A stretch of DNA of 64,000 nt from Melioribacteraceae bacterium (lineage in GTDB: Bacteria > Bacteroidota > Ignavibacteria > Ignavibacteriales > Melioribacteraceae): assembly GCA_027030245.1 (NCBI GenBank), contig JALVFE010000021.1:186001-250000 (forward strand). The letters run 5' to 3'. Position numbers and translations under genes: made by a program. This document shows, piece after piece, positions 5,356 to 50,161 of the stretch. The notes beneath the pieces were generated by a model that saw only the letters and a list, made by a program, of their open reading frames with translations, was not told the origin of the DNA and did no database searches. The first letter of the stretch is position 1. Each line of letters starts with the position of its first letter.

Positions 5356-5775
5356 CTATGCTTTTTCTTTTGCTGATTTATAAGTGTCCACTCCGGCTTT
5401 AATTGCCGATTTTAATTTTTCACTTTCTTCTTCTACTTTGGATTTTCCGGTATCAAGATATGTTGATGTTTTTTCTTTTGCTTCTTTCAGAATTTTTTCC
5501 GCTTCTTTCAGAAGTGCATCCACTTTTACTTTAGCGTCGGCAACAAGTTTTTCCGATTTCTTTTTACCGTCGTTAATTAATTCGTTAGCTTTTCCTTTAG
5601 CTTCCTCTATTACGTTTTCAGCGTCTTCGAAGAAATCTTCGCCCTTTTCTCTCAACTCGCGTCGTAATTCGCTACCCGATTTAGGCGCATATAATAAAGC
5701 TATCACGGAACCAACGATTGTTCCGGTTAAAAAGCCGACTATTAGACCTCTTCCTAATCCATTGTCGTCTTGCAT
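5356..5775 (-). CDS. YtxH domain protein
   Basis: A 139-residue protein. Residues 8-30 form a Gly-rich membrane helix ending in LLYAPKSG, the YtxH signature. The remainder is a highly charged Lys/Glu/Ala coiled coil of about 100 residues. Family members are small envelope or stress proteins of unclear role. An in-frame extension to 5823 exists, but GGAGGTAAAT immediately precedes the ATG at 5775, which fixes the start. It is first in the operon with DUF948 and the EF-G paralogue. Confidence 0.85.
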   Translation of the reverse strand: MQDDNGLGRGLIVGFLTGTIVGSVIALLYAPKSGSELRRELREKGEDFFEDAENVIEEAKGKANELINDGKKKSEKLVADAKVKVDALLKEAEKILKEAKEKTSTYLDTGKSKVEEESEKLKSAIKAGVDTYKSAKEKA

Positions 5776-5873
5776 ATTTACCTCCGTAAATTTTATTAAA
5801 ACCTTAGTTAATAATAATAACACCTATTTCTAAAATCAAGGAAATAAGTTAAAGTTCACAGTAATTATACAAC

Positions 5874-7193
5874 CTATTTCATATTTTTCACCAATTCGGC
5901 GGCAAATTGCGAACATTTAACTTTTTTAGCGCCTTTCATTTGTCGAGCAAAATCATAAGTTACAACTTTGGAGCGGATAGTTTTGCTCATCGATTTTTCG
6001 ATCATATCTGCGGCTTTTTTCCAGCCGAGATAATTAAGCATCATCACTCCGGATAGAATGAGCGAACCCGGATTCACTTTATCCATTCCGGCATATTTTG
6101 GCGCCGTCCCGTGCGTTGCTTCGAAAAGTCCGTATTCGTAACTGATGTTAGCGCCCGGGGCAATTCCCAAACCGCCTACTTGAGCGGCAGCGGCGTCGGA
6201 AAGATAATCGCCGTTTAAGTTTGGCGTCGCGATTACATCGTATTCATCTGGTCTTAATAATAATTGCTGGAACATTTGATCGGCAATTCTATCTTTAATT
6301 ACAATTCTGTCTCCCGGATCACCTGCTTTTCTACCGCCGCGTAATTTTTTAAATGCGCCGGGTTTGGTCATCGGAGTAACACCGTCGGGTCCTTTAACCT
6401 GATCCCATAATTCGTCTTCGGTAATTACATAATCGCGGAATTTTTTCACTGCAATTTCATAACCCCAATCTTTAAATGAACCTTCGGTAAATTTCATTAT
6501 ATTTCCTTTATGCACAAGCGTAACGCTCTTTCTATTATTATCAATGGCATATTCAATTGCTTTTTGAACAAGTCTTTGGGTTCCGAATTTGCTGATCGGT
6601 TTAATTCCAATACCCGACCCTTTTCTGATTTCTTTTTTAGCTTTTTTGTTAATGAATTCGATTACTTCTTTTGCGGCTTTTGTGTTGGCTTTGAATTCAA
6701 TTCCGGCGTAAACGTCTTCGGTATTTTCGCGGAATATCACTACATCCAATTTTTGGGGCGCTTTCATAGGCGAAGGCGAACCGCTGTAATATTTAACAGG
6801 TCTGACGCACGCAAATAAATCGAGTATTTGTCTTAGGGAAACGTTCAAGCTTCTGATACCGCCGCCAACGGGAGTTGTTAATGGTCCTTTAATTGCCACA
6901 ATAAATTCTTTAATTGCTTCTATAGTTTCGTCCGGTAACCAAGTATTTTTTCCGTAAACTTTTACCGCTTTTTCACCGGCATAAATTTCCATCCACTCGA
7001 TTTTCTTTTTACCTTTATAAGCTTTTTCAACCGCTGCATCCAAAACCATTTTAGTCGCTCGCCAAATATCCGGTCCAATACCGTCACCTTCGATAAACGG
7101 AATTATCGGATTATCCGGAACCGTTAATTTCCCTTTCGACGCTTTAATTTTTTCACCTTGTGCAGGTACTTTAATTTTCTTGTACTTTGCCAT
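5874..7193 (-). CDS. icd: NADP-dependent isocitrate dehydrogenase
   Basis: A 439-residue TCA-cycle enzyme converting isocitrate to 2-oxoglutarate and CO2. Conserved blocks are [11 protein letters not shown] near residues 33-43, the substrate loop [13 protein letters not shown] around 110-122 (with the serine equivalent to the regulatory serine of the E. coli enzyme), [14 protein letters not shown], and the C-terminal [12 protein letters not shown]. The length and sequence fit the NADP homodimeric type. AGGAG lies six bases before the ATG. The gene overlaps the end of the flippase-like gene by 23 nt. A second, different member of the dehydrogenase family is encoded at 25720. Confidence 0.95.
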
Positions 7194-25719: not shown

Positions 25720-26895
25720 ATGAGAACAATTGTAACAATGCCCGGCGACGGTATAGGAAAAATTGTGTTACCGGAAGCGCTAAAAGTTTTAAAAGCCGCC
25801 GGATTCGAGGCAAATTACGTTCACGGAGATATCGGATGGGAATTTTGGCAAAAAGAAGGAAACGCTCTTCCCCAAAGGACAATCGATTTGCTGGAAGAAC
25901 ATAAAATCGGTTTGTTCGGAGCAATTACAAGTAAACCGAAAGATGCGGCTGCGGAAGAATTGGATCCGGCTTTGAAAGATAAAGGATATGTTTATTTTAG
26001 TCCGATCGTAGGTCTACGCCAACATTTTAATCTGGATATTTGCATTCGTCCGTGCCAATCTTTTGAAGGTAACCCGCTGAACTTCATCAGAAAAACTTTG
26101 GACGGATACGAAGAACCGCACGTAAATGCAGTAATTTTCAGACAAAACACCGAAGGCTTATATGCCGGAGTGGAATGGACAAATCCGCCCGATGTGGTTC
26201 GCGAAGCATTGGAAACACATCCGAAAATGAAAAAATTTGCCGATGTTCCGAGCGAAGATTTGGCAATTTCAACAAGAATTGTAACTCGCCCGGCTTGTCA
26301 TAGAATTGCTAAAGAAGCATTTGAATATGCTAAAAAATTCGGTTATAAAAGCGTAACGGTTTGCGAAAAACCAAACGTGCTGCGGGAAACTTCCGGTATG
26401 ATGGTTGAAGAAGCCAGAAAAGTGGCAAAAGAATATCCGGAAATTGCACTATGGGAAACAAACATCGATGCACAAATGATGTGGCTTACCAAAAATCCGG
26501 AAGATTACGGTGTTATCGTTGCGGAAAATATGTTCGGTGATATTGTAAGCGACGGATTTGCCGGCTTGGTCGGTGGTCTTGGTTTTGCATGCAGCGCCAA
26601 TATCGGAAAGGAAGTTGCAGTATTCGAACCAACGCACGGTTCGGCTCCGAAATACGAAAAACTCGATCCGCCGATAGTTAATCCGATAGCTATGATTTTA
26701 AGTGCATGCATGATGTTGGATCATATCGGCGAAACGGAAAAAGCGACAAAAATTAGAAATGCTATTGCTGAAGTGATAAAAGAAGGAAAAGTGAGAACTT
26801 ACGATATGATGAAATTGCGCGGCGGTCCCGATGCATTAAATCAAGGGGCTTGCACTACTTACGAAATGACCGAAGCGATTATTCAAAAACTTTGA
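25720..26895 (+). CDS. Isocitrate/isopropylmalate dehydrogenase family protein
   Basis: A 391-residue beta-decarboxylating dehydrogenase. It starts TIVTMPGDGIGK and has IFRQNTEGLYAGVEW, the metal-site region ENMFGDIVSDGFAGLVGGLG and EPTHGSAPKY. It is shorter than, and clearly different from, the NADP-isocitrate dehydrogenase at 5874. Its place ahead of aconitase and citrate lyase genes favours an NAD-linked isocitrate or related hydroxy-diacid substrate over leucine synthesis, as no leu genes are nearby. AAAGGA precedes the ATG. It is first in the central-carbon block. Confidence 0.82.
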   Translation: MRTIVTMPGDGIGKIVLPEALKVLKAAGFEANYVHGDIGWEFWQKEGNALPQRTIDLLEEHKIGLFGAITSKPKDAAAEELDPALKDKGYVYFSPIVGLRQHFNLDICIRPCQSFEGNPLNFIRKTLDGYEEPHVNAVIFRQNTEGLYAGVEWTNPPDVVREALETHPKMKKFADVPSEDLAISTRIVTRPACHRIAKEAFEYAKKFGYKSVTVCEKPNVLRETSGMMVEEARKVAKEYPEIALWETNIDAQMMWLTKNPEDYGVIVAENMFGDIVSDGFAGLVGGLGFACSANIGKEVAVFEPTHGSAPKYEKLDPPIVNPIAMILSACMMLDHIGETEKATKIRNAIAEVIKEGKVRTYDMMKLRGGPDALNQGACTTYEMTEAIIQKL

Positions 26896-26904
26896 GAAGT
26901 TTGG

Positions 26905-26958
26905 ACGTGAAACGTGAAACGTAAGACGTAAAATGTTAAACGGAAGAGACGCTAGATG
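26905..26958. repeat. Left word-repeat arm of four-helix element 1
   Basis: Tandem degenerate words of the type ACGTGAA/ACGTAAG/ACGTAAAAT, then GACGCTAGA (26948-26956). The sense is the reverse complement of the right arm at 27380-27450, so the two arms bracket the four-helix gene as an imperfect inverted repeat. GACGCTAGA has exact inverted partners at 27382-27390 and 27424-27432. Confidence 0.75.
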
Positions 26959-27005
26959 AAAAACACTGAAAGCAAATCCGTTCATGGATGGAGAAATTAT
27001 AAAAT

Positions 27006-27362
27006 ATGTTAAAATTATCTCACAAAGAATTAGATGTTTGGAATCAAAGCATGATTTTAATTAAAAAAGTTTATGTTTTTACAAAAACTTTGCCTTCCGA
27101 TGAAAAGTTTAACTTAATTTCTCAAATGAGACGTTCTGCAATTTCAGTAGCGTCCAACATAGCAGAAGGATTATCCAGAACAACAAAAAAAGAAAAACAA
27201 AGATATATAGAAATTTCCCGTTCTTCATTAATTGAATTAGATGCACAACTTGAGGCATGTTCGGAAATTGGTTATTCTTCTACCGAGGATTTATCTGAAT
27301 TTGACGATTTATTAAATCACATTTTTGCAATGTTGACAAACTTAATGAAAAATATTGATTGA
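27006..27362 (+). CDS. Four-helix bundle protein (23S rRNA IVS/S23 family), copy 1
   Basis: A 118-residue all-helical protein with the family signature QMRRSAISVASNIAEGLSR (about residues 39-57) and the SSLIELDAQLE helix. Relatives are encoded in intervening sequences of 23S rRNA genes and are related to the Avd protein of diversity-generating retroelements; no enzymatic role is established. It is inserted between the dehydrogenase and HD genes and flanked by inverted word repeats. GGAG lies 12 bases before the ATG. A TGGAGAAATTAT word ahead of it recurs at the start of the next gene. Confidence 0.88.
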   Translation: MLKLSHKELDVWNQSMILIKKVYVFTKTLPSDEKFNLISQMRRSAISVASNIAEGLSRTTKKEKQRYIEISRSSLIELDAQLEACSEIGYSSTEDLSEFDDLLNHIFAMLTNLMKNID

Positions 27363-27379
27363 AAAATTAAACATTATTT

Positions 27380-27450
27380 CGTCTAGCGTCTAACGTTTTA
27401 CGTCTAACGTTTTACGTTTTATGTCTAGCGTCTTACGTCTATCGTATTTC
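27380..27450. repeat. Right word-repeat arm of four-helix element 1
   Basis: Repeats of GTCTAGCGTC, TAACGTTTTACG and TCTTACG lie immediately downstream of the copy-1 stop codon. It reads as the reverse complement of the left arm at 26905-26958. The tract stops just before the ribosome site of the HD gene. Confidence 0.78.
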
Positions 27451-27474
27451 CTCTTACATTAATCTGGAGAAATT

Positions 27475-28029
27475 ATGAGAGAAAAAATAAAACAAATTTG
27501 GCCCGAAATAGAACTTATTAAAAACGAAGAAATTAAAGAAAAGACTTATAAATGTTGGGAATATGCAATTGAGCATTCCCCGCTTGAACCCGAAGACTTG
27601 GAAAAAATTCCATTCTCATTGCTCATTGATAATTACGATATAAAATTTATGCAACATAAGCGGGCAGCTGTCCGTCTTTCAATAGCAATTGCCGAAGAAA
27701 TGCAAAAAAGCTTTGGTAACGAACTAAAGATTAATATGGATTATCTCATTTCCGGCGCAATTTTAATCGACGTAGGAAAATTGCTTGAATATGAAATGGA
27801 TGAGAACGGAAAACTTTCGACGAGCAAGAACGGTAAACTTTTACGTCATCCGTTCAGCGGGGTTTCGTTGGCGGAACGTTTCGGACTTCCGTGGGAAATT
27901 CAACATATAATTGCCACACATTCGAAAGAAGGAGATTTGGGAAAACGAACGGTCGAATCTATAATTGTGCATCATGCGGATTTTGTTTCGTTTGAACCGT
28001 TTCAGAACGAGAAGACGTTGAGATGTTGA
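27475..28029 (+). CDS. HD-superfamily phosphohydrolase-like protein with altered HD doublet
   Basis: A 184-residue helical protein. It has a first histidine in FMQHKRAAV (about residue 62), RHPFSGVSLAERFGLP, IIATHS and a C-terminal VHHADFVSFEPF. The usual HDxGK reads IDVGK (about residues 101-105), losing the metal-binding His; I recall Ala or other residues there in this subfamily. The last residues (NEKTLRC) are encoded by the left word-repeat arm of the second four-helix element, so the C terminus seems to have been rewritten by the insertion. GGAGAAATT precedes the ATG. It sits between the dehydrogenase and aconitase genes. Confidence 0.72.
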   Translation: MREKIKQIWPEIELIKNEEIKEKTYKCWEYAIEHSPLEPEDLEKIPFSLLIDNYDIKFMQHKRAAVRLSIAIAEEMQKSFGNELKINMDYLISGAILIDVGKLLEYEMDENGKLSTSKNGKLLRHPFSGVSLAERFGLPWEIQHIIATHSKEGDLGKRTVESIIVHHADFVSFEPFQNEKTLRC

Positions 28030-28039
28030 GACGTTAAAA
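28009..28039. repeat. Left word-repeat arm of four-helix element 2
   Basis: Words GAGAAGACGTTGAGATGTTGAGACGTT overlap the last codons of the HD gene. The orientation (GACGTT) is opposite to the ACGTCTAAACG words right of copy 2, again giving an inverted arrangement, though more degenerate than element 1. Confidence 0.6.
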
Positions 28040-28071: not shown

Positions 28072-28434
28072 ATGTTAAAGTTAGGGCATAAAAACTTAAC
28101 AACATGGGAAAAAAGTTTAGAATTGGTTGAATCCATCTACAAGTTTTGCGATAAACTACCTGAAAAAGAAAAATATATCATAATTCCACAATTAAAAAGA
28201 GCTGCAATATCGGTTTCTTCTAATATTGCAGAAGGATATGCTAGAAAATCCAAAAAAGAAACTTTAAGATTTTTGGATATTGCCAGATCTTCTTTAGTAG
28301 AAATTGATACTCAGATTGCTATTACTGTAAAATTAAAGTATGTCGATGAAAAAAATATTAATAAATTATCGGAAACCATAAATCATACTTTCGCATTATT
28401 AACAAAATTAATAAACTCAATTATTCAGAACTAA
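28072..28434 (+). CDS. Four-helix bundle protein (23S rRNA IVS/S23 family), copy 2
   Basis: A 120-residue helical protein with QLKRAAISVSSNIAEGYAR (about residues 39-57) and RSSLVEIDTQI. It is clearly related to copy 1 (same length and start MLKL.HK) but well diverged, so not a recent duplicate. GAAGGA lies upstream of the ATG. The gene is in the same orientation as the surrounding metabolic genes and is followed directly by a 15-bp tandem repeat. Confidence 0.88.
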   Translation: MLKLGHKNLTTWEKSLELVESIYKFCDKLPEKEKYIIIPQLKRAAISVSSNIAEGYARKSKKETLRFLDIARSSLVEIDTQIAITVKLKYVDEKNINKLSETINHTFALLTKLINSIIQN

Positions 28435-28435
28435 C

Positions 28436-28507
28436 GTCTAAACGTTTTTCGTCTAAACGTTTTTCGTCTAAACGTTTTTCGTCTGCACGTTTATTCGATT
28501 GCACGTT
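28436..28507. repeat. 15-bp tandem repeat, right arm of four-helix element 2
   Basis: Three perfect copies of GTCTAAACGTTTTTC (28436-28450, 28451-28465, 28466-28480) are followed by degenerate units GTCTGCACGTTTATTC and GATTGCACGTT. The tract ends beside GGAGG, the ribosome site of aconitase. There are no spacers between units, so it is not a CRISPR array. Confidence 0.9.
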
Positions 28508-28521
28508 GATACGGAGGAACC

Positions 28522-30498
28522 ATGGCTCAAAATTTAGTTGAAAAAATTGCACAAAAATTTGCCGTTGATATTCCGGGAGATTTTAAAATTCATAGCGGAG
28601 ATTACATTTCCATTCAACCGGCTTATGTAATGACGCATGACAACACCGGAGCGGTAATTTCCAAGTTCAAAAAAATCGGCGCTAAAAAATTTGCTAATCC
28701 GCGGCAAGTTGTCCATACTCTCGATCATAATATTCAAGACAAAAGCGAAAAGAACATTGCAAAGTATATGAAAATCGAGAATTTCTCGCGGGAAATGAGT
28801 TGCGATTTTTATCCCGCCGGGCGCGGCATCGGGCACCAAATAATGGTTGAAGAAGGCTACGCATGGCCCGGTACCATGGTCGTTGCTTCCGATAGCCATT
28901 CAAACATGTACGGTGGAATTGGATGTTTGGGTACTCCAATCGTAAGAACCGACGCAGCAGCAATTTGGGCTACAGGCAGAACTTGGTGGCAAATTCCCCC
29001 TGTCGCAAAAGTAGAGCTGAAAGGAAATCTTAAACCCGGAGTTACCGGCAAAGATGTAATTATTGCTCTGTGCGGTTATTTTAATCACGACGAAGTTTTA
29101 AATCACGCAATTGAGTTTACAGGAGAAGGAATCAAAAATTTATCATTGGATCAAAGATTAACTATCGCCAATATGACAACCGAATGGGGTGCACTCGTTG
29201 GTCTCTTCCCTATCGATGAAATAACAATAGATTGGATTAAGAAAAGGATTGAATTTGTAAAGAAACGAGGACCGGCGGGAGTTCCTTCCGATGCGGATGG
29301 TAACGGTGAACATCCCCGATTAAATCAAAAACATTTGGAAGAATTGATCGAAGAACTTCCAAATTTGACACCGGACGACGACGCTTATTATTCCAAAGAA
29401 TTAACAATCGACCTTAGCACAATTGAACCTTACGTATCCGGTCCGAACACCGTAAAGGTAATGACGCCCGTTTCGGAAATTAAAAAACAAAATGTGAAAA
29501 TTAATAAAGCCTATCTTGTTTCATGCGTTAACAGCCGGTTGGAAGATATTGCCGAAGCCGCAAAAATCGTTAAGGGTAAAAAAGTTGCCGAGGGAGTGGA
29601 ATTTTACATTGCCGCCGCTTCAAGCGAAGTTCAGAAAGAAGCTGAGAGTTTGGGTTACTGGAATGATTTATTGGAAGCCGGTGCCATTCCGCTACCACCC
29701 GGTTGCGGACCGTGCATAGGTTTGGGAGCAGGTTTGCTGGAAGACGGAGAAGTAGGAATATCCGCCACAAACAGAAATTTTAAAGGAAGAATGGGCTCGC
29801 CAAACGCTGAAGCATACCTGGCTTCTCCTGCTGTGGTTGCGGCTTCTGCGATTTCGGGCAAAATAGATTACGGGTTTGAAAACGGCGGACACCAAATTAA
29901 CGGTGAGGTTAAAGTAAATCCCAAACCCGAAAGACCAAAAGGTAAAGTGGAAATAATTGACGGTTTTCCCAAACAAATTAAGGGCAATGTAATTTTCTGT
30001 CCGGCGGACAACATGAACACCGACGGTATTTATCCGGGTAAATACACGTATATCGACGATTTCACTCCGGAAGACCAAGCGAAAGTTGTAATGGAAAATT
30101 ATGATATTAAATTCAAGGAAATTGCAAAAGCCGGTGATATTCTTGCCGGCGGATATAATTTCGGAACCGGAAGTTCACGCGAACAAGCGGCTACCGCATT
30201 AAAATACAAAGGCATTCAATTGGTTGTTGTCGGTTCGGCAAGCGCAACATACAAAAGAAATGCAATAAATAACGGATTTTTGGTTTTGGAAGTTCCCGAA
30301 TTTATTGATTATCTAAAATCAAAATTCGGCGATGAAATGCTTACAATTAATACTGAGACCGAAGCCGATCTCGATTTTGTAAATTCCTTGTTAACTTTCG
30401 GAGATAAGAAGTTTGATATTGAACCGGTAGGTGTTGCCGCGCAGGAATTAATCGTATTAGGCGGCTTGGAAAATTGGGTTAAAAAACATCTTGTTTAA
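28522..30498 (+). CDS. Aconitate hydratase
   Basis: A 658-residue [4Fe-4S] dehydratase interconverting citrate and isocitrate. The cluster ligands are Cys335 (SCVNSRLED) and Cys395/Cys398 (GCGPCIG). Substrate-site blocks include VASDSHSNMYGG and the swivel-domain NFGTGSSREQAA. The length matches the short mitochondrial/archaeal-like aconitase rather than the 890-residue AcnA or AcnB types. GGAGG sits four bases before the ATG. It shares the block with the dehydrogenase, MmgE/PrpD and citrate lyase genes. Confidence 0.93.
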   Translation: MAQNLVEKIAQKFAVDIPGDFKIHSGDYISIQPAYVMTHDNTGAVISKFKKIGAKKFANPRQVVHTLDHNIQDKSEKNIAKYMKIENFSREMSCDFYPAGRGIGHQIMVEEGYAWPGTMVVASDSHSNMYGGIGCLGTPIVRTDAAAIWATGRTWWQIPPVAKVELKGNLKPGVTGKDVIIALCGYFNHDEVLNHAIEFTGEGIKNLSLDQRLTIANMTTEWGALVGLFPIDEITIDWIKKRIEFVKKRGPAGVPSDADGNGEHPRLNQKHLEELIEELPNLTPDDDAYYSKELTIDLSTIEPYVSGPNTVKVMTPVSEIKKQNVKINKAYLVSCVNSRLEDIAEAAKIVKGKKVAEGVEFYIAAASSEVQKEAESLGYWNDLLEAGAIPLPPGCGPCIGLGAGLLEDGEVGISATNRNFKGRMGSPNAEAYLASPAVVAASAISGKIDYGFENGGHQINGEVKVNPKPERPKGKVEIIDGFPKQIKGNVIFCPADNMNTDGIYPGKYTYIDDFTPEDQAKVVMENYDIKFKEIAKAGDILAGGYNFGTGSSREQAATALKYKGIQLVVVGSASATYKRNAINNGFLVLEVPEFIDYLKSKFGDEMLTINTETEADLDFVNSLLTFGDKKFDIEPVGVAAQELIVLGGLENWVKKHLV

Positions 30499-30581
30499 AA
30501 ACTAAAGAGATAATTTTCTTTTGATAATTATCATATAATATTTATGTTGCATTATACAATTTCCTATATTTTTTGCACAAT

Positions 30582-31784
30582 ATGAAAAACAAAATATATA
30601 AAAGAACTTTAGTTAACCAAATCGTAAAATTTCTAAAACGTTCAGATATAATTGTTATCATCGGAGCAAGACAAGTTGGGAAAACCACTTTATTAAAATA
30701 CCTGATAACTAATCATATAAAGAAAAACGTTTTTTATTTCGATTTGGAAAATATAAAACTCCTTCAATTATGCAATTCCGGGACCGAAAATACTTACCGG
30801 TATTTACTTGAACAAGGTGCAAACGAAAAAGAAAAGATTACGCTGGTCATTGATGAAATTCAATATCTGAACAACCCGTCTTCATTCCTTAAAATTTTTC
30901 ATGATCATTATAAAAATGTGAAACTTATAGTTTCCGGTTCGTCAACATTCGATATTAAGAAGAAATTTAACGAAAGCCTTGCCGGCAGAACAGTTACTTT
31001 TGAATTGTTCCCACTTTCCTTTGAAGAGTTTTTACTTTTTAAAAATAAATCATACAAACTATCAACAAATAATTCGCAAACTACAAACGACGAACTCATT
31101 AACCTTGCCGAGGAATATATCAAATACGGCGGGTATCCTAAAGTTGTTCTGGAAAAATCCGTTGAAGTAAAACAAGTTTACTTGTCGCAAATTATCAATA
31201 CATATATCAGAAAAGATATACGCGATATAGGAAACATTAGGAACATCGAGGCTTTTAATAATTTATTGGAACTTCTGGCGTCTCAGTCGGGCAGCTTACT
31301 TAATATTTTGGAACTATCCAATACTTTAAATCTAAATAGAAATACGGTTGAAACATATTTATATCTGTTGGAAAACACATTTATTATTAAAAGAATCAGA
31401 CCGTTTCATAAAAATCTAAGAACGGAAATATCGAAACATCCGAAAATTTATTTTTTAGATACGGGAATGATGCACTTGCTATGGTTAAAGGATTTCCCTA
31501 AAGTGATACTCGGAAATTCTTTCGAAACATTTGTATTTCTGGAACTATTAAAATCAAAAAAAGAAGTGAAATTCTGGCGTACAACTAATAAACAAGAAGT
31601 GGATTTTATTTTTCAAGGGAAAAAATTGCATTCGATAGAAGTTAAATTGAATTTCAATCATGCAAAACTTAAATCATTAAACTTTTTCTCACATAAATAT
31701 AATTCGGTAAAAACGGTTATCGGATTATACGGGAAAAAACAAGGGAAATATATTTGGGAATTTATAAAAGATAAATACTTGTAA
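30582..31784 (+). CDS. AAA_14/DUF4143 ATPase (accessory)
   Basis: About 400 residues. The Walker A GARQVGKTT (about 28-36) and Walker B LVIDEIQYL (about 92-100) form the AAA_14 domain. After it come LPLSFEEFL-like and YGGYPKVVL motifs and a C-terminal DUF4143 domain with the PD-(D/E)XK-like EVDFIFQ...IEVKLN. Such proteins are widespread, mobile and mostly uncharacterised; some are toxin-antitoxin or defence linked. I use the ATG at 30582 rather than the TTG at 30573. The gene is visibly AT-richer than the aconitase gene upstream. Confidence 0.85.
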   Translation: MKNKIYKRTLVNQIVKFLKRSDIIVIIGARQVGKTTLLKYLITNHIKKNVFYFDLENIKLLQLCNSGTENTYRYLLEQGANEKEKITLVIDEIQYLNNPSSFLKIFHDHYKNVKLIVSGSSTFDIKKKFNESLAGRTVTFELFPLSFEEFLLFKNKSYKLSTNNSQTTNDELINLAEEYIKYGGYPKVVLEKSVEVKQVYLSQIINTYIRKDIRDIGNIRNIEAFNNLLELLASQSGSLLNILELSNTLNLNRNTVETYLYLLENTFIIKRIRPFHKNLRTEISKHPKIYFLDTGMMHLLWLKDFPKVILGNSFETFVFLELLKSKKEVKFWRTTNKQEVDFIFQGKKLHSIEVKLNFNHAKLKSLNFFSHKYNSVKTVIGLYGKKQGKYIWEFIKDKYL

Positions 31785-32356: not shown

Positions 32357-33382
32357 ATGGATAATTCGGTTGATCTGGATAAAAACCTAATCAGAGATTT
32401 AGCACTGATAATTGAGAAAAGCAAAAATCAATTATCTGTCCAAGTGAACAGCGCCCTCACACTAACTTTTTGGAAAATCGGAAAAACTATAAACGAACAT
32501 ATTCTAAAAAATAAACGAGCTGAATACGGGAAGCAAATTGTTAAAAATATTGGGATTAAATTAAGCGAACAATACGGAAGAAGTTTTAATTCTAAAAATC
32601 TGCACCGTATGATGCAATTTGCTGAAAAATTTCCCGACTTTGAAATTGTCGTTACACTGTCACGACAATTAAGTTGGTCGCATTTCATTGAAATTATTCC
32701 TATTAAAAATCCAGAAGCACGATTCTTTTATGCAAAAAAAATAGCGGAAGAAAAATGGAGCGTTCGTCAAACACGTAAACAAATTGAACGAAAAGTTTAC
32801 GAACGGACAGAAATTGCAAAAATCCAAGACCCAATAATTAGACAAAATATTGATTCGAGCAACGCGGTTTTTAAAGACCCTTACTTTCTTGATTTTTTAG
32901 GGCTTAAAGATGGATATTTGGAAAAAGATTTGGAAACGGCAATAATCAAAGAGTTGGAAAATTTTATATTGGAACTTGGTAACGGCTTTACCTTTATTGA
33001 ACGACAAAAGAGAATGATAATAGATGGGAAAGACTTTTATTTGGATTTGCTGTTCTTTCATAGAAAATTAAAGAGATTAGTCGCGATTGAATTAAAGCTT
33101 GGTGAATTTAAAGCTGATTACAAAGGACAAATGGAACTTTACCTTAAATGGTTGAACCGGTATGAAAAAGAAAAAGATGAAAATATGCCAATTGGTTTAA
33201 TATTATGCACCGAAGCAAGTCGTGAGCAGATAGAACTACTTGAAATGCATAAAGATGGTATTATGGTTGCAGAATATTGGAAAGAGCTACCACCTAAAAA
33301 AAAGCTTGAAGAAAAACTGCGAAAGATATTAGCTGAAGCAAGAAGTAGAATTGAAACAAGAAAGATTATAGAAAATGAATAG
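32357..33382 (+). CDS. DUF1016/YhcG-type PD-(D/E)XK nuclease-like protein
   Basis: A 341-residue protein. The N-terminal DUF1016 helical domain has FWKIGKTI, EYGKQIV, SWSHFIEIIP and ARFFYAKKIAEEKWSVRQTRKQI. The C-terminal nuclease domain has FYLDLLFFHRKLKRLVAIELKLGEFKADYKGQM, with the catalytic-type D...E-L-K. YhcG-like proteins are found in accessory regions and some are linked to DNA mobility or defence. It completes the AT-rich insert that separates aconitase from MmgE/PrpD. Confidence 0.88.
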   Translation: MDNSVDLDKNLIRDLALIIEKSKNQLSVQVNSALTLTFWKIGKTINEHILKNKRAEYGKQIVKNIGIKLSEQYGRSFNSKNLHRMMQFAEKFPDFEIVVTLSRQLSWSHFIEIIPIKNPEARFFYAKKIAEEKWSVRQTRKQIERKVYERTEIAKIQDPIIRQNIDSSNAVFKDPYFLDFLGLKDGYLEKDLETAIIKELENFILELGNGFTFIERQKRMIIDGKDFYLDLLFFHRKLKRLVAIELKLGEFKADYKGQMELYLKWLNRYEKEKDENMPIGLILCTEASREQIELLEMHKDGIMVAEYWKELPPKKKLEEKLRKILAEARSRIETRKIIENE

Positions 33383-36109: not shown

Positions 36110-36130
36110 TTAGTTTATAGCTTAATAAAT

Positions 36131-36144
36131 TTGTTTTATTGCTA
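36131..36144. repeat. Left 14-bp inverted repeat of four-helix element 3
   Basis: TTGTTTTATTGCTA lies 45 bases before the copy-3 start codon and is the exact reverse complement of 36575-36588, just beyond the copy-3 stop. The flanking sequence is partly symmetrical beyond the 14 bp. Confidence 0.8.
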
Positions 36145-36189
36145 TATTGTTCAAAACAAAAAATAGTAGAACGGTAAAATATTAACAAT

Positions 36190-36561
36190 ATGAAATATTT
36201 AAAACTTAATGATATTGAAGCATATAAAATTTCGTTTAATTTGAGTAATATGGTCTGGGAAATAATATTGAATTGGAAACAATTTGAAAAAGATACTGTT
36301 GGTAAACAGTTTATTCGTTCTATTGATTCAATTTCGGCAAATATAGCCGAGGGTTTCGGAAGGTATCATAAAAAAGATAAAATTAAATTTTACAGATATA
36401 GTTATGGTTCCTTGTATGAATCGCTCGACTGGAATGAAAAAGCTAATAAAAGAAATTTAATAACCACAGAACAATACAATTACATTTTAAATCAATTACA
36501 GAAATTACCAAAGTCCTTACATCACTTAATAAATTTTACAGATAATAAACTTAAAATTTGA
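36190..36561 (+). CDS. Four-helix bundle protein (23S rRNA IVS/S23 family), copy 3
   Basis: A 123-residue helical protein with QFIRSIDSISANIAEGFGR (about residues 39-57) followed by YRYSYGSLYESLDW. It belongs to a different branch of the same family as copies 1 and 2. It lies between the CitDE fusion and CitF and is bracketed by an exact 14-bp inverted repeat. It is AT-rich with no strong ribosome site. The role is unknown; relatives are structural or RNA-binding-like four-helix proteins. Confidence 0.85.
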   Translation: MKYLKLNDIEAYKISFNLSNMVWEIILNWKQFEKDTVGKQFIRSIDSISANIAEGFGRYHKKDKIKFYRYSYGSLYESLDWNEKANKRNLITTEQYNYILNQLQKLPKSLHHLINFTDNKLKI

Positions 36562-36574
36562 ATTTGACATTAAT

Positions 36575-36612
36575 TAGCAATAAAACAATACAACAATATT
36601 ATAAGCAACCAC
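36575..36612. repeat. Right arm of four-helix element 3 with shared words
   Basis: TAGCAATAAAACAA (36575-36588) is the inverted partner of 36131-36144. It continues ACAATACAACAAT and ATAAGCAACCAC; these same words recur at 49236-49247 and 49358-49380, showing a dispersed repeat family. The last word runs up to the CitF start, so the promoter or ribosome site of CitF lies inside the repeat. Confidence 0.8.
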
Positions 36613-46883: not shown

Positions 46884-48173
46884 ATGCTTACGATTCAGAA
46901 AAAACTTTCCAATACATTTTATGCTCTCTTAAGTTTGCCGGCAACGGCTATGGGATTTGCCCTTTCCATTCAAATTTCTGCGTTAAGTTGGATTTTGGTA
47001 ACGAAATTCAATCTCAATCTGGAAGAAATGGGTTTTGTTTGGGCTGCCGGTCCGGTTGCCGGATTAATCGCTCAACCTATCGTTGGATTAATAAGCGATA
47101 ACGTTTGGTTTTGGGGCGGAAGACGCAGACCGTTTATCATAATCGGCGGAACCCTTGCGGCTCTTATGCTTTTGGCTCTTCCGAATATCGATGTAATAAA
47201 CGAAGCTACCGGAATAGGAAAACTTATTGCAGTCGCCTTGGTTGTTGCCCTTACTCTCGATTTATCGATTAACGTCAGCTTTAATCCAACCAGATCGTTA
47301 ATTGCCGATGTTACGCCTGACGGTATTCCGCGCACAAAAGGTTACACTTGGATGCAAACAATTTCCGGAAGTTTCGGTGTATTGGCTTACGCAATCGGCG
47401 CAATTTTCGGAAACTATTTTTTAATTTATTTCGGTGTGGGTTTGGTTTTACTCTTTACGTTAATCCCTTCTCTGCTCATCGAAGAACCGCGCGAATTAAA
47501 AAAAGATACGGAAGATACGACAATTGAAAACAATGGAAATAAAACAAATGTAATTGAGTTCCTTAAAATTTGTTTTGCAAATGCTTTTTCGTGGTTGGGC
47601 GTTCAAACGATGTTTGTATTTATAATTGCGTTCATCGGACAAAAAATTAATCCAACGCCGGACGGTTCCACCAAAGAAATGATCGACGCAATCGATTTGA
47701 AAACTGGTCAGATAATTTCTATTTCGTTCTTGGTTTTGAACGCCGTCGGTGCGATTCTACCGGTGCTTGTTTTGGAACCGGTATCGGAAAAATTGGGAAG
47801 AGTGAGAACGCATTTATTAAGCGTGGGCATAATGTCAATAGCTTACTTCGGAATATTATTTTTTGGAAAATCTGAATATGTCCTTTATTTTCTAATGGCA
47901 ATTGCGGGAATCGGTTGGGCGGCAATTGTAAGCCTGCCGTTCGCAATTATGTCGGAAACGGTAAACAAAAGCAAAATGGGATTTTTTATGGGGATGTTTA
48001 ATCTGTCGATTGTAATTCCCCAATTAATCGTGAGCATGTTTTTCGGAAGTCTGATTCAAAACGCACAAGATAAAGGAATCGTATTTATCATTGCGGGCGT
48101 CTCGCTTGCGGTTTCTTCCATTGTTTGGTTGATTGTTAAAGAGCAAACAAAATCGGTTGTGGGGCAAGAATAA
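46884..48173 (+). CDS. MFS sugar transporter (SUT/MalY-like)
   Basis: A 429-residue, 12-helix inner-membrane protein. Helix 1-3 features ISALSWI, GPVAGLIAQPIVGLISD and WGGRRRPFIIIGG match the sucrose/maltose transporter branch of MFS. It is directly downstream of the exported amylase, with AGGA before the ATG, so import of maltose or small maltodextrins is likely. A cytoplasmic loop of about 40 charged residues joins the two halves. Confidence 0.85.
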   Translation: MLTIQKKLSNTFYALLSLPATAMGFALSIQISALSWILVTKFNLNLEEMGFVWAAGPVAGLIAQPIVGLISDNVWFWGGRRRPFIIIGGTLAALMLLALPNIDVINEATGIGKLIAVALVVALTLDLSINVSFNPTRSLIADVTPDGIPRTKGYTWMQTISGSFGVLAYAIGAIFGNYFLIYFGVGLVLLFTLIPSLLIEEPRELKKDTEDTTIENNGNKTNVIEFLKICFANAFSWLGVQTMFVFIIAFIGQKINPTPDGSTKEMIDAIDLKTGQIISISFLVLNAVGAILPVLVLEPVSEKLGRVRTHLLSVGIMSIAYFGILFFGKSEYVLYFLMAIAGIGWAAIVSLPFAIMSETVNKSKMGFFMGMFNLSIVIPQLIVSMFFGSLIQNAQDKGIVFIIAGVSLAVSSIVWLIVKEQTKSVVGQE

Positions 48174-48174
48174 A

Positions 48175-49236
48175 ATGAGAGTTTTATTAATACTTTTACT
48201 TTGCGTAATTAATATTTCCGCACAATATTATCACAATAATAATTTTGACTTCAGTGCAATCCCGGTATTTTGGCACATCGTAGACATTCTTTCTGCGAAT
48301 GAAGAACCTTCGGTAAAAGACTGGGATGATCTTTTTAATACACCGGGCTATTCCGTGCTTACTCGCAGAGAATTTTCCAAAGATTTTTTCAAAAAGAATT
48401 TCCGGTTGGCTTTCAAACCTTCATTGAAAGACGAGTTGAACCAAAAGCTTCAACAAAACAACAAGGAAAGTTATTATTTGCACTATTATGTTAAAGTTAA
48501 AAACAACAGGGAAAAACTTGGATATCAACTTAATAAACTCAAAAGCAGATCCTTAAACAAAGAAGCTCTTGATTTAACCTTAAGATATTTGCCGGTAAAT
48601 TCCGTCTCCAGTTTTCCCCCGGTTGCGTTTGTAATTTTCGAAAATAACGGCAGGGGAAGTTCGCCGATTGTTGTTGATCTTCAGGCAACGCTTGAGTGGG
48701 ATTTTATTTCATTTTTGGCGCACGAATTTCATCATTTCTACCGGAATAAACTTACCAAACTGGATTTCAATTCCATGAAAAAAGAAGACAAACCGCTTGT
48801 TGAAGCAATGATTAAAATTGAAGCCGAAGGAATAGCCGACCGCGTGGATAAGAAAAAATGGTTTAATTCTTCATATCGCCAATCTTCCCCTTACGCTTAT
48901 GATTTTAAAAACGAAGTGCGAAAAACTCCGCAACTTTTAACAAAAATAAACAACCTTTTGGAAATGTATTCGCTTCAAGAAAGTTCGCGGGAAACACTGG
49001 GAAAACAAATCCGGGAAATAATTCCGCAAAAAGGTCATCCGACTGGATATTTTATGGCTTCGCTTATAGAAGAAAAACTGGGCAGAAACGAATTGGTAAA
49101 ATGTGTCGGAAATCCGTTCAGATTTTTCATTGCATACCATAATGCTGCAAAACTTAGCGGGAACCAATACCCGAAATTTTCACCTAAAGTATTACGATTG
49201 CTCACTAACATGGAAAACCATTATATTTCTGATTAA
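48175..49236 (+). CDS. Exported DUF5700-like putative zinc metallopeptidase
   Basis: A 353-residue protein with a signal peptide (about residues 1-15). His183-Glu184-x-x-His187 in AHEFHHFY is a gluzincin-type zinc site, with a likely third ligand in IEAEGIADRVD about 35 residues on. The pattern resembles DUF5700 (putative Zn-dependent proteases). It follows the transporter stop by one base. The upstream extension to 48133 lies inside the transporter gene. The substrate is unknown. Confidence 0.72.
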   Translation: MRVLLILLLCVINISAQYYHNNNFDFSAIPVFWHIVDILSANEEPSVKDWDDLFNTPGYSVLTRREFSKDFFKKNFRLAFKPSLKDELNQKLQQNNKESYYLHYYVKVKNNREKLGYQLNKLKSRSLNKEALDLTLRYLPVNSVSSFPPVAFVIFENNGRGSSPIVVDLQATLEWDFISFLAHEFHHFYRNKLTKLDFNSMKKEDKPLVEAMIKIEAEGIADRVDKKKWFNSSYRQSSPYAYDFKNEVRKTPQLLTKINNLLEMYSLQESSRETLGKQIREIIPQKGHPTGYFMASLIEEKLGRNELVKCVGNPFRFFIAYHNAAKLSGNQYPKFSPKVLRLLTNMENHYISD

Positions 49237-49490
49237 TAAGCAACCACTTCCCACAAATGACTATTGACAAATGACGAATGACCAATTCACTAAACCACAA
49301 AAAACAAATAACAAATTCCAAAAGTCCAAATAACAAATCCCAACATTTTTTCACCAAACAATACAACAATTTAGCAATAAAGAAACACAACTATTCATCA
49401 ACTCCATTTCCCACCAACCTGCTACCATTGACAAATGACCAATGACCAGTGACCAATGACCATTAACCATTGACAAATGACCATTATCCA
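49236..49490. repeat. Gene-less low-complexity word-repeat tract
   Basis: It begins ATAAGCAACCAC, continues with TGACAAATGACGAATGACCAA words, AACAAATAACAAATTCC words, ACAATACAACAAT plus TTAGCAATAA (49358-49380), then a run of TGACCAATGACCAGTGACC and related heptamers (49429-49484). Three words match the right arm of four-helix element 3 at 36575-36612, but there is no four-helix gene here. The rest to 49624 holds only the leader of the DUF2249 gene. Confidence 0.8.
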
Positions 49491-49624
49491 ACCTTTTCCC
49501 AACATCAAAAATCAATCTCTCCGTGAACCGACTTCCTTTTTTAATCGGAATTTTTATTCTTTTTATTTATATTTAATCCAAATAAAAATGAGTTTTATTA
49601 ACAATTTGGAATTAGCGAGAGAAA

Positions 49625-50161
49625 ATGGAAAAAGAAAAAAACAATTTGGTAACGTTGGACGTTCGACCGACAATACAAAGCGGAAGAGATCCGTTCGACG
49701 AAATTATGTCAACGGTCAAAGAACTTAAAGACGATCAAACATTGGAAATAATAAATGTATTTGAACCGATTCCGTTGATTAACAAATTGAAAAGTATGGG
49801 ATTTGATTCCGAGGTCGTAAGGAAAGACGGTGCCGTTCATACTTATTTCAAAAAAACAGAAGTTGACGAAAACGAAAAAAAGAAATCCCATGTGTATAAA
49901 CCCGATCCGGAAGAATTTGATAAAACCCTTGCCGGCTTTGGCGATAAAGTTAGAACAATCGATGTTCGACCTTTGGAAATGCCGGAACCAATGGTGACTA
50001 TTTTAAAAGAAATTGAAACTTTGGAACCGGATTGGGTATTGTTCGTGGAACACAAAAAAATTCCGCAATATTTACTTCCGGAATTGGAAGAAAGAAATTT
50101 TAACGTAGTAATAAAAGAATTGGAAGATAATCACGTTCAGCTTTTAATATTTAAGTCTTAG
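49625..50161 (+). CDS. Protein with two DUF2249 domains
   Basis: 178 residues: one DUF2249 unit at about 8-72 (LDVRPTIQSGRDPFDEIM, ending VHTYFKK) and a second at about 108-178 (IDVRPLEMPEPM, ending VQLLIFKS), joined by a charged linker. DUF2249 is a TusA-like small fold often encoded near hemerythrins, NO-reducing oxidases and Fe-S repair factors. GAGAG lies before the ATG. It opens a four-gene cluster with a heme-copper-like protein, DUF59 and DUF1858 proteins. Confidence 0.85.
   Translation: MEKEKNNLVTLDVRPTIQSGRDPFDEIMSTVKELKDDQTLEIINVFEPIPLINKLKSMGFDSEVVRKDGAVHTYFKKTEVDENEKKKSHVYKPDPEEFDKTLAGFGDKVRTIDVRPLEMPEPMVTILKEIETLEPDWVLFVEHKKIPQYLLPELEERNFNVVIKELEDNHVQLLIFKS

Follow-up and report, generated by a model that had tools for sequence, protein, structure and literature searches.

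Inverted heptad arrays around S23-family genes suggest a candidate one-gene mobile element in bacterial operons

Comparison of orthologous junctions shows that genes of the S23/four-helix family are gained or lost together with the arrays on either side of them, as an arm-gene-arm unit. Because some bacteria have this unit between given operon genes and others lack it at the same place, it has the appearance of a tiny mobile element. The reading we favor, with a probability of roughly 0.55, is that S23 cassettes, each about 0.45-0.5 kb long, are mobile elements with a single gene, that the arms are their DNA ends, and that the S23 protein helps them move. The locus under study lies in a 64,000-nucleotide stretch of a Melioribacteraceae genome (the window; its genome is referred to as G000), with the following features.

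25720-26895, isocitrate/homoisocitrate-dehydrogenase-like gene, upstream neighbor of A
26904..26956, plus strand, left arm of A, degenerate heptads ACGTGAA/ACGTAAG/ACGTAAA, last word GACGCTAGA
27006..27362, plus strand, first gene (A), S23-family four-helix-bundle protein of 118 aa (PF05635, 7.3e-33; TIGR02436, 2.2e-31)
27377..27451, plus strand, right arm of A, inverted heptads GTCTAAC/GTTTTAC/GTCTAGC
27475-28029, HD-domain gene, downstream neighbor of A
28011..28036, plus strand, left arm of B, ACGTT words overlapping the 3' end of the HD-domain gene (read from the sequence)
28072..28434, plus strand, second S23-family gene (B), 120 aa, 43% identical to A (PF05635, 8e-33)
28432..28494, plus strand, right arm of B, ACGTCTAAACGTTTTTCGTCTA repeats with a spacing of 15 (read from the sequence)
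28522-30498, homoaconitase-like gene, downstream of B
36120..36149, plus strand, left arm of C
36190..36561, plus strand, third S23-family gene (C), 123 aa (PF05635 match G000:C21:222211-222522)
36578..36606, plus strand, right arm of C

Gene A belongs to PF05635 and TIGR02436, scoring 113.4 bits against a curated cut-off of 33.8 and 108.3 bits against 24, respectively; 2gsc and 2rld are solved relatives. The original prediction had placed an S23 gene between inverted arrays of ACG words at this position, and this holds: the local inverted score in the 120-bp flanks is 29, a value reached by none of 2000 dinucleotide shuffles (mean 12.1, largest 24). The longest ungapped inverted pair joins 26904-26947 with 27382-27425 over 44 nt at 82% complementarity. 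The exact 9-bp inverted pair reported earlier is also found, with GACGCTAGA at 26948-26956 and TCTAGCGTC at 27382-27390 and again at 27424-27432. Inverted repeats around the ORF are a feature of 23S rRNA intervening sequences (IVS); however, A is not inserted in a 23S rRNA helix, as its neighbors are protein genes. An Rfam scan of the 64-kb window at gathering thresholds gave one tRNA and no other match. Across the window, lag-7 identity of at least 0.66 is confined to the arms of A (26895-26950 and 27374-27451) and to 49244-49493, where heptad arrays with CAAATGACCAATGACC words and no S23 gene occupy the spacer between the ORFs at 48133-49236 and 49625-50161.

Genes B and C were not mentioned in the earlier account of the window. 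B has ACGT words on both sides, with an own pair score of 15 that is not significant (153 of 2000 shuffles); the left arm of A pairs with the right arm of B at a score of 24. The words of C are unlike those of A and B, and its score of 17 is reached by 17 of 2000 shuffles, the gene ends being shifted by one base in this test. G000 contains 11 PF05635 matches, among which 10 S23 ORFs were testable. Four have arms at a level reached in at most 1 of 100 shuffles (A, L005, L010, and L006) and six do not, most of the latter being flanked on at least one side by low-complexity arrays as judged by eye. On contig C40 of this genome, the region at about 9-17 kb holds, inside 8 kb, three similar S23 copies (L002, L005, and L009) whose arms are of the AAGGTTA type with period 6; two of the copies are incomplete, and several gene-less heptad arrays lie around them. 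Phages searched with the B protein gave no match. Just 3' of the homoaconitase-like gene, the window carries genes for a DUF4143/AAA_14 ATPase (30573-31784) and a YhcG-type PDDEXK nuclease (32357-33382).

We surveyed S23-family genes in family and phylum genome collections, with matches in 55 of 57 and 116 of 148 genomes, in named genomes, where 80 loci were kept from at least 568 candidates, and in plasmids, where 13 of 16 S23 records (15 of the 16 being cyanobacterial) were fetched. Once partial ORFs, genes with short flanks, and identical genes had been taken out, 184 hits left 140 full-length ORFs, which were analyzed with 200-bp flanks. Among the matches listed, which span many phyla, 83 of these 140 ORFs are flanked by inverted arms at p<=0.01 and 57 have no significant arms, compared to 11 of 200 control genes, which were drawn from 409 available at the same loci and partly share the arms because many adjoin S23 genes. 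Flank similarity in direct orientation reaches the same threshold for only 19 of the 140. A nonredundant set (182 reduced to 169) gives 99 of 169; neither the surveyed loci nor the same-junction pairs considered below are phylogenetically independent. At the 83 significant loci, the arms lie at a median of 25 nt upstream of the start codon and 9 nt past the stop codon.

The arms are spread widely over bacteria. Among the matches listed for named genomes, 46 of 67 ORFs reach this threshold, and by record titles they come from Clostridia, Beta-, Gamma- and Deltaproteobacteria, Bacteroidetes, Ignavibacteriae, Acidobacteria, Acetothermia, Cloacimonetes, Anaerolineae, and candidate phyla, a few of the alignments (L079, L114, and L136) not being heptad-like by eye. 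Nine of the 13 plasmid loci pass, two of which (L171 and L172) are near copies of one region; the four that fail include L178, with long heptad arrays in direct orientation. The words themselves vary by locus, with a mean arm score of 19.9 within a locus and 11.2 between loci. The cassettes therefore differ from miniature inverted-repeat transposable elements (MITEs) and insertion sequences in lacking terminal inverted repeats that recur from copy to copy.

The flanks of S23 genes show autocorrelation peaks at 7, 14, and 21, which are also seen, more weakly, in control flanks. Arrays of any period occur in 46 of 304 S23 flanks and in 42 of 818 control flanks, 29 of the latter 42 having period 7. 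Lag-7 windows make up 4.2% of the sequence at less than 100 bp from an S23 gene and 0.05-0.15% beyond 400 bp, a density about 28 to 85 times higher. The original prediction implied that relatives should carry the gene with its repeats and that the repeats should be rarer beside unrelated genes. Neither comparison refutes the prediction, with arms at 83 of 140 S23 ORFs, although absent at 57, and at 11 of 200 controls.

Filled and empty sites, as known for MITEs and insertion sequences, are found for S23 cassettes in several groups. A comparison with empty orthologous sites had been proposed, and such sites exist among the four genomes compared for the genus of the window (G000-G003). The junction that holds gene B is filled in G000 and G001, the G001 gene being 76% identical to B, and empty in G002 and G003. 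At the junction of gene A, G000 has A itself, G002 has a gene 86% identical to it, G001 has a different S23 gene with CTAGAAG words (47% identical to A and 51% to B), and G003 has no S23 gene. Words of the type ACGTGGAACGTC after icd in G003 are arm-like, but their pair score is reached by 368 of 1000 shuffles, and we discarded them as a decayed cassette.

Similar variation is seen elsewhere. In one operon of one Bacteroidota genus, four junctions vary among five species, containing one S23 type, another S23 type, a copy with an internal deletion (L229), or nothing, with gaps of -4, 3, 46, and 67 bp at the empty junctions. The operon encodes 3-hydroxyacyl-CoA dehydrogenase, thioesterase, thiolase, hexapeptide, aldehyde-dehydrogenase-MaoC, and enoyl-CoA-hydratase proteins and is probably of the phenylacetate type. 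On Nostocales plasmids, filled and empty junctions can be aligned with a flank identity of about 85-95%: the integrase junction (L171/L172 filled, L194 empty, 91%), the TraM junction (L177/L184 filled, L185 empty, 95%), the nrdB-nrdA junction (L174 filled, L227 empty, 85%), and a further junction filled in L188, L190, and L191 and empty in L189. At the TraM junction, L186 has kept arm-like arrays with no annotated gene, and L187 carries a different heptad-armed insert, again with no annotated gene. Several cassettes hold the same position across genera, which is compatible with slow loss as well.

One junction can hold different S23 cassettes with different arms, and both arms of a locus change in concert. 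In 127 same-junction pairs, which are not independent, the own-arm score exceeds the cross-arm score in 95, is lower in 22, and ties in 10. The arms reach into the coding ends of neighboring genes, namely the last codons of the HD-domain gene in the window and, in several of L228-L232, the beginning of the aldehyde-dehydrogenase gene. Among 37 pairs of S23 genes that share at least 60% identity and lie in unrelated surroundings, an arm similarity of at least 20 on both sides is retained in just three (L173/L181, L176/L177, and L107/L075), so that the arms are seldom recognizable after a move. At L188, a putative TTCTA repeat blends into the arm, and no clear target-site duplication is seen at the remaining sites. 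The cassettes resemble MITEs and other non-autonomous inverted-repeat elements in being small, having inverted ends, occupying many sites, and lacking a transposase, and differ from them in their conserved ORF and the variable sequence of their ends.

Heptad arms are not exclusive to S23 genes. A multicopy Nostocales repeat, detected through a copy lying within the S23 gene of L191, consists of a non-coding core between heptad arms and occurs at 101 places in 43 plasmid records, ruling out exclusivity. The L191 copy (772-968), which interrupts the gene, has a hairpin-like core as well as heptad arms, and its outer ends are conserved. Of 21 arrays of period 6 or 7 in a non-random sample of 464 kb of G000, 13 have one of nine S23 ORFs within 200 bp, and eight have no S23 gene. 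Elsewhere in G000 (L265), a small ORF at 5808-6143, HigA/XRE antitoxin-like by eye, has an ACGTAAG array on either side (5534-5641 and 6199-6249), both arrays pointing the same way.

Given the arms on a non-coding core, several heptad-armed elements would be served by S23 or by some other factor. The latter leads to an alternative that we regard as unlikely, in which heptad-armed units are moved in trans by another enzyme and S23 is cargo. The Nostocales repeat speaks for it, as do the arms without S23 in G000, at L186, and at L187. Against it, the two enzyme families examined do not provide a general mover: among 12 chosen one- or two-contig genomes that bear S23, RVT_1 (PF00078) has no match in eight and Y1_Tnp (PF01797) has none in two, so neither is a universal partner. 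An obligatory role for a reverse transcriptase or a Y1 transposase was rejected for the same reason. The S23 protein is a distant relative of Avd/bAvd of diversity-generating retroelements (NF033474, 2.4e-05 and 1.1e-06; PF22296, 5.8e-04 and 3.3e-04), with all matches below the curated cut-offs. Avd is a reverse-transcriptase-binding protein. The reverse transcriptase gene that accompanies the avd-like gene of such a retroelement was not found among the nine window ORFs searched.

The S23 gene shares the orientation of its operon neighbors at 112 loci, is opposite to them at 7, and has mixed neighbors at 24 (143 of 152 loci with usable neighbors, not independent of each other). This is most simply explained by dependence on transcription of the host operon, although a mechanism acting on the transcript fits as well. 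In 23S rRNA, S23p ORFs are known in stem-bounded intervening sequences, for which mobility, with the ORF as its component, is an old proposal (PMC4990558). An IVS-like RNA element, with arms that fold in the mRNA, a stem cut by RNase III, and an S23 segment that is removed or separated, would account for the sense bias of 112 to 7 and has its precedent in the S23 ORF of the RNase III-cut IVS stem (PMC4990558). The A locus is in line with it, since its arms form the terminal stem of an RNA with a z of -5.95 in sense and -2.96 in antisense.

Across loci, a selected mRNA hairpin is not supported. Mismatches between the arms on the sense strand comprise 189 G.U and 234 A.C at 99 loci (183 and 228 at 83 loci), with no G.U excess. 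At 102 loci with significant arms, the sense duplex is more stable in 52 and less stable in 49, and z is lower for the sense strand in 40 of 102; moreover, seven of the 143 cassettes are antisense to both neighbors. In the absence of both a G.U excess and a sense preference, we read the arms as ends that probably act on DNA. Long stems may tolerate mismatches, and the tRNA acceptor-stem control for the G.U test (six tRNAs found, two usable) was too small to be informative, so that these results only weaken the IVS-like model, which we judge improbable. With respect to the original prediction of a non-autonomous mobile or RNA-structured element, the mobile part agrees with a gained and lost unit that contains no transposase between its arms, while the proposed hairpin in an mRNA finds no support in spite of the strong z of the A locus.

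A non-mobile origin, in which old operon genes are repeatedly lost and heptad arrays gather in adjacent spacers as slippage products, is very unlikely: it draws on junctions conserved across genera, decayed copies such as L186 and the internal deletion in L229, and the slippage proposed for 7-mers (PMC4679880), but slippage by itself gives no locus-by-locus complementarity of the two sides, one junction hosts unrelated S23 lineages with other arms, and related S23 genes occur in unrelated surroundings.

If S23 cassettes are mobile elements as we propose, each would consist of a heptad array, a ribosome-binding region, the S23/four-helix ORF, and an inverted heptad array, in this order. The arms would be recognized as DNA ends or fold into a single-stranded hairpin, and the S23 protein would bind the arms or this hairpin and aid movement of the cassette using host replication or repair enzymes. 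Slippage could be the source of added heptads, and hairpin-templated copying could keep the paired arms alike while the words drift between loci.

Both halves of this association have precedents. Among the longer tandem repeats, those of seven bases are reported to be the most abundant in many bacterial genomes, and the short tandemly repeated repetitive (STRR) sequences of cyanobacteria are heptamer repeats. From their word length and position, we consider that cyanobacterial STRR sequences may be S23-type heptad arms. GGGAATC heptamers are described in Xanthomonas and Nostoc; those of Xanthomonas frequently form inverted pairs and lie for the most part between genes of the same direction (PMC4692102). 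TAACTGA heptamers are described in Beggiatoaceae (PMC4679880). These repeats resemble S23 arms in being tandem 7-mers in spacers, whereas the arrays described here are tied to S23 cassettes. The terms "S23" and "four helix" occur 0 times in the main texts of PMC4692102 and PMC4679880. In an X. vasicola S23 locus (L131), GGGAATC words stand on the left and degenerate complements on the right by eye, with no exact GATTCCC and a computed arm score of 11. The literature covered, mostly titles and abstract starts with preprints and most subscription papers outside its scope, holds no report that joins S23/four-helix genes to heptad arrays. While heptamer repeats and S23 elements have each been described before, the link between them appears to be new.

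The cassettes share with the 23S rRNA IVS an S23-family ORF within a segment bounded by inverted repeats (PMC4990558), and differ from it in lying between protein genes, in having heptad arms with locus-specific words, and in showing empty and refilled junctions with no detected RNA-level constraint. A wider reading is possible, and we offer it tentatively: S23 cassettes would form a pan-bacterial, transposase-free class of one-gene elements, their arms, which may be counted whether intact, decayed, or borrowed by non-coding cores, would be a main origin of the unexplained heptanucleotide repeats in bacterial genomes, and the rRNA IVS would be the members residing in rRNA. If this is true, the role of the S23 four-helix protein and the abundance of seven-base repeats would become a single testable question, and a tiny element would repeatedly settle within operons and leave them unbroken.

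The junctions involve genes of complex I, succinate dehydrogenase, ribonucleotide reductase, CRISPR, and aromatic degradation. In the L024 group, the S23 gene directly precedes that of the complex I 49-kDa subunit, and in the L091 group it lies between the succinate dehydrogenase flavoprotein and iron-sulfur genes; related S23 genes are found in matching surroundings in other genera for both groups. On plasmids of Anabaena sp. 90 (L175) and Pseudanabaena galeata (L178), S23 genes lie between annotated cas6 and cas4 genes and are flanked by heptad arrays.
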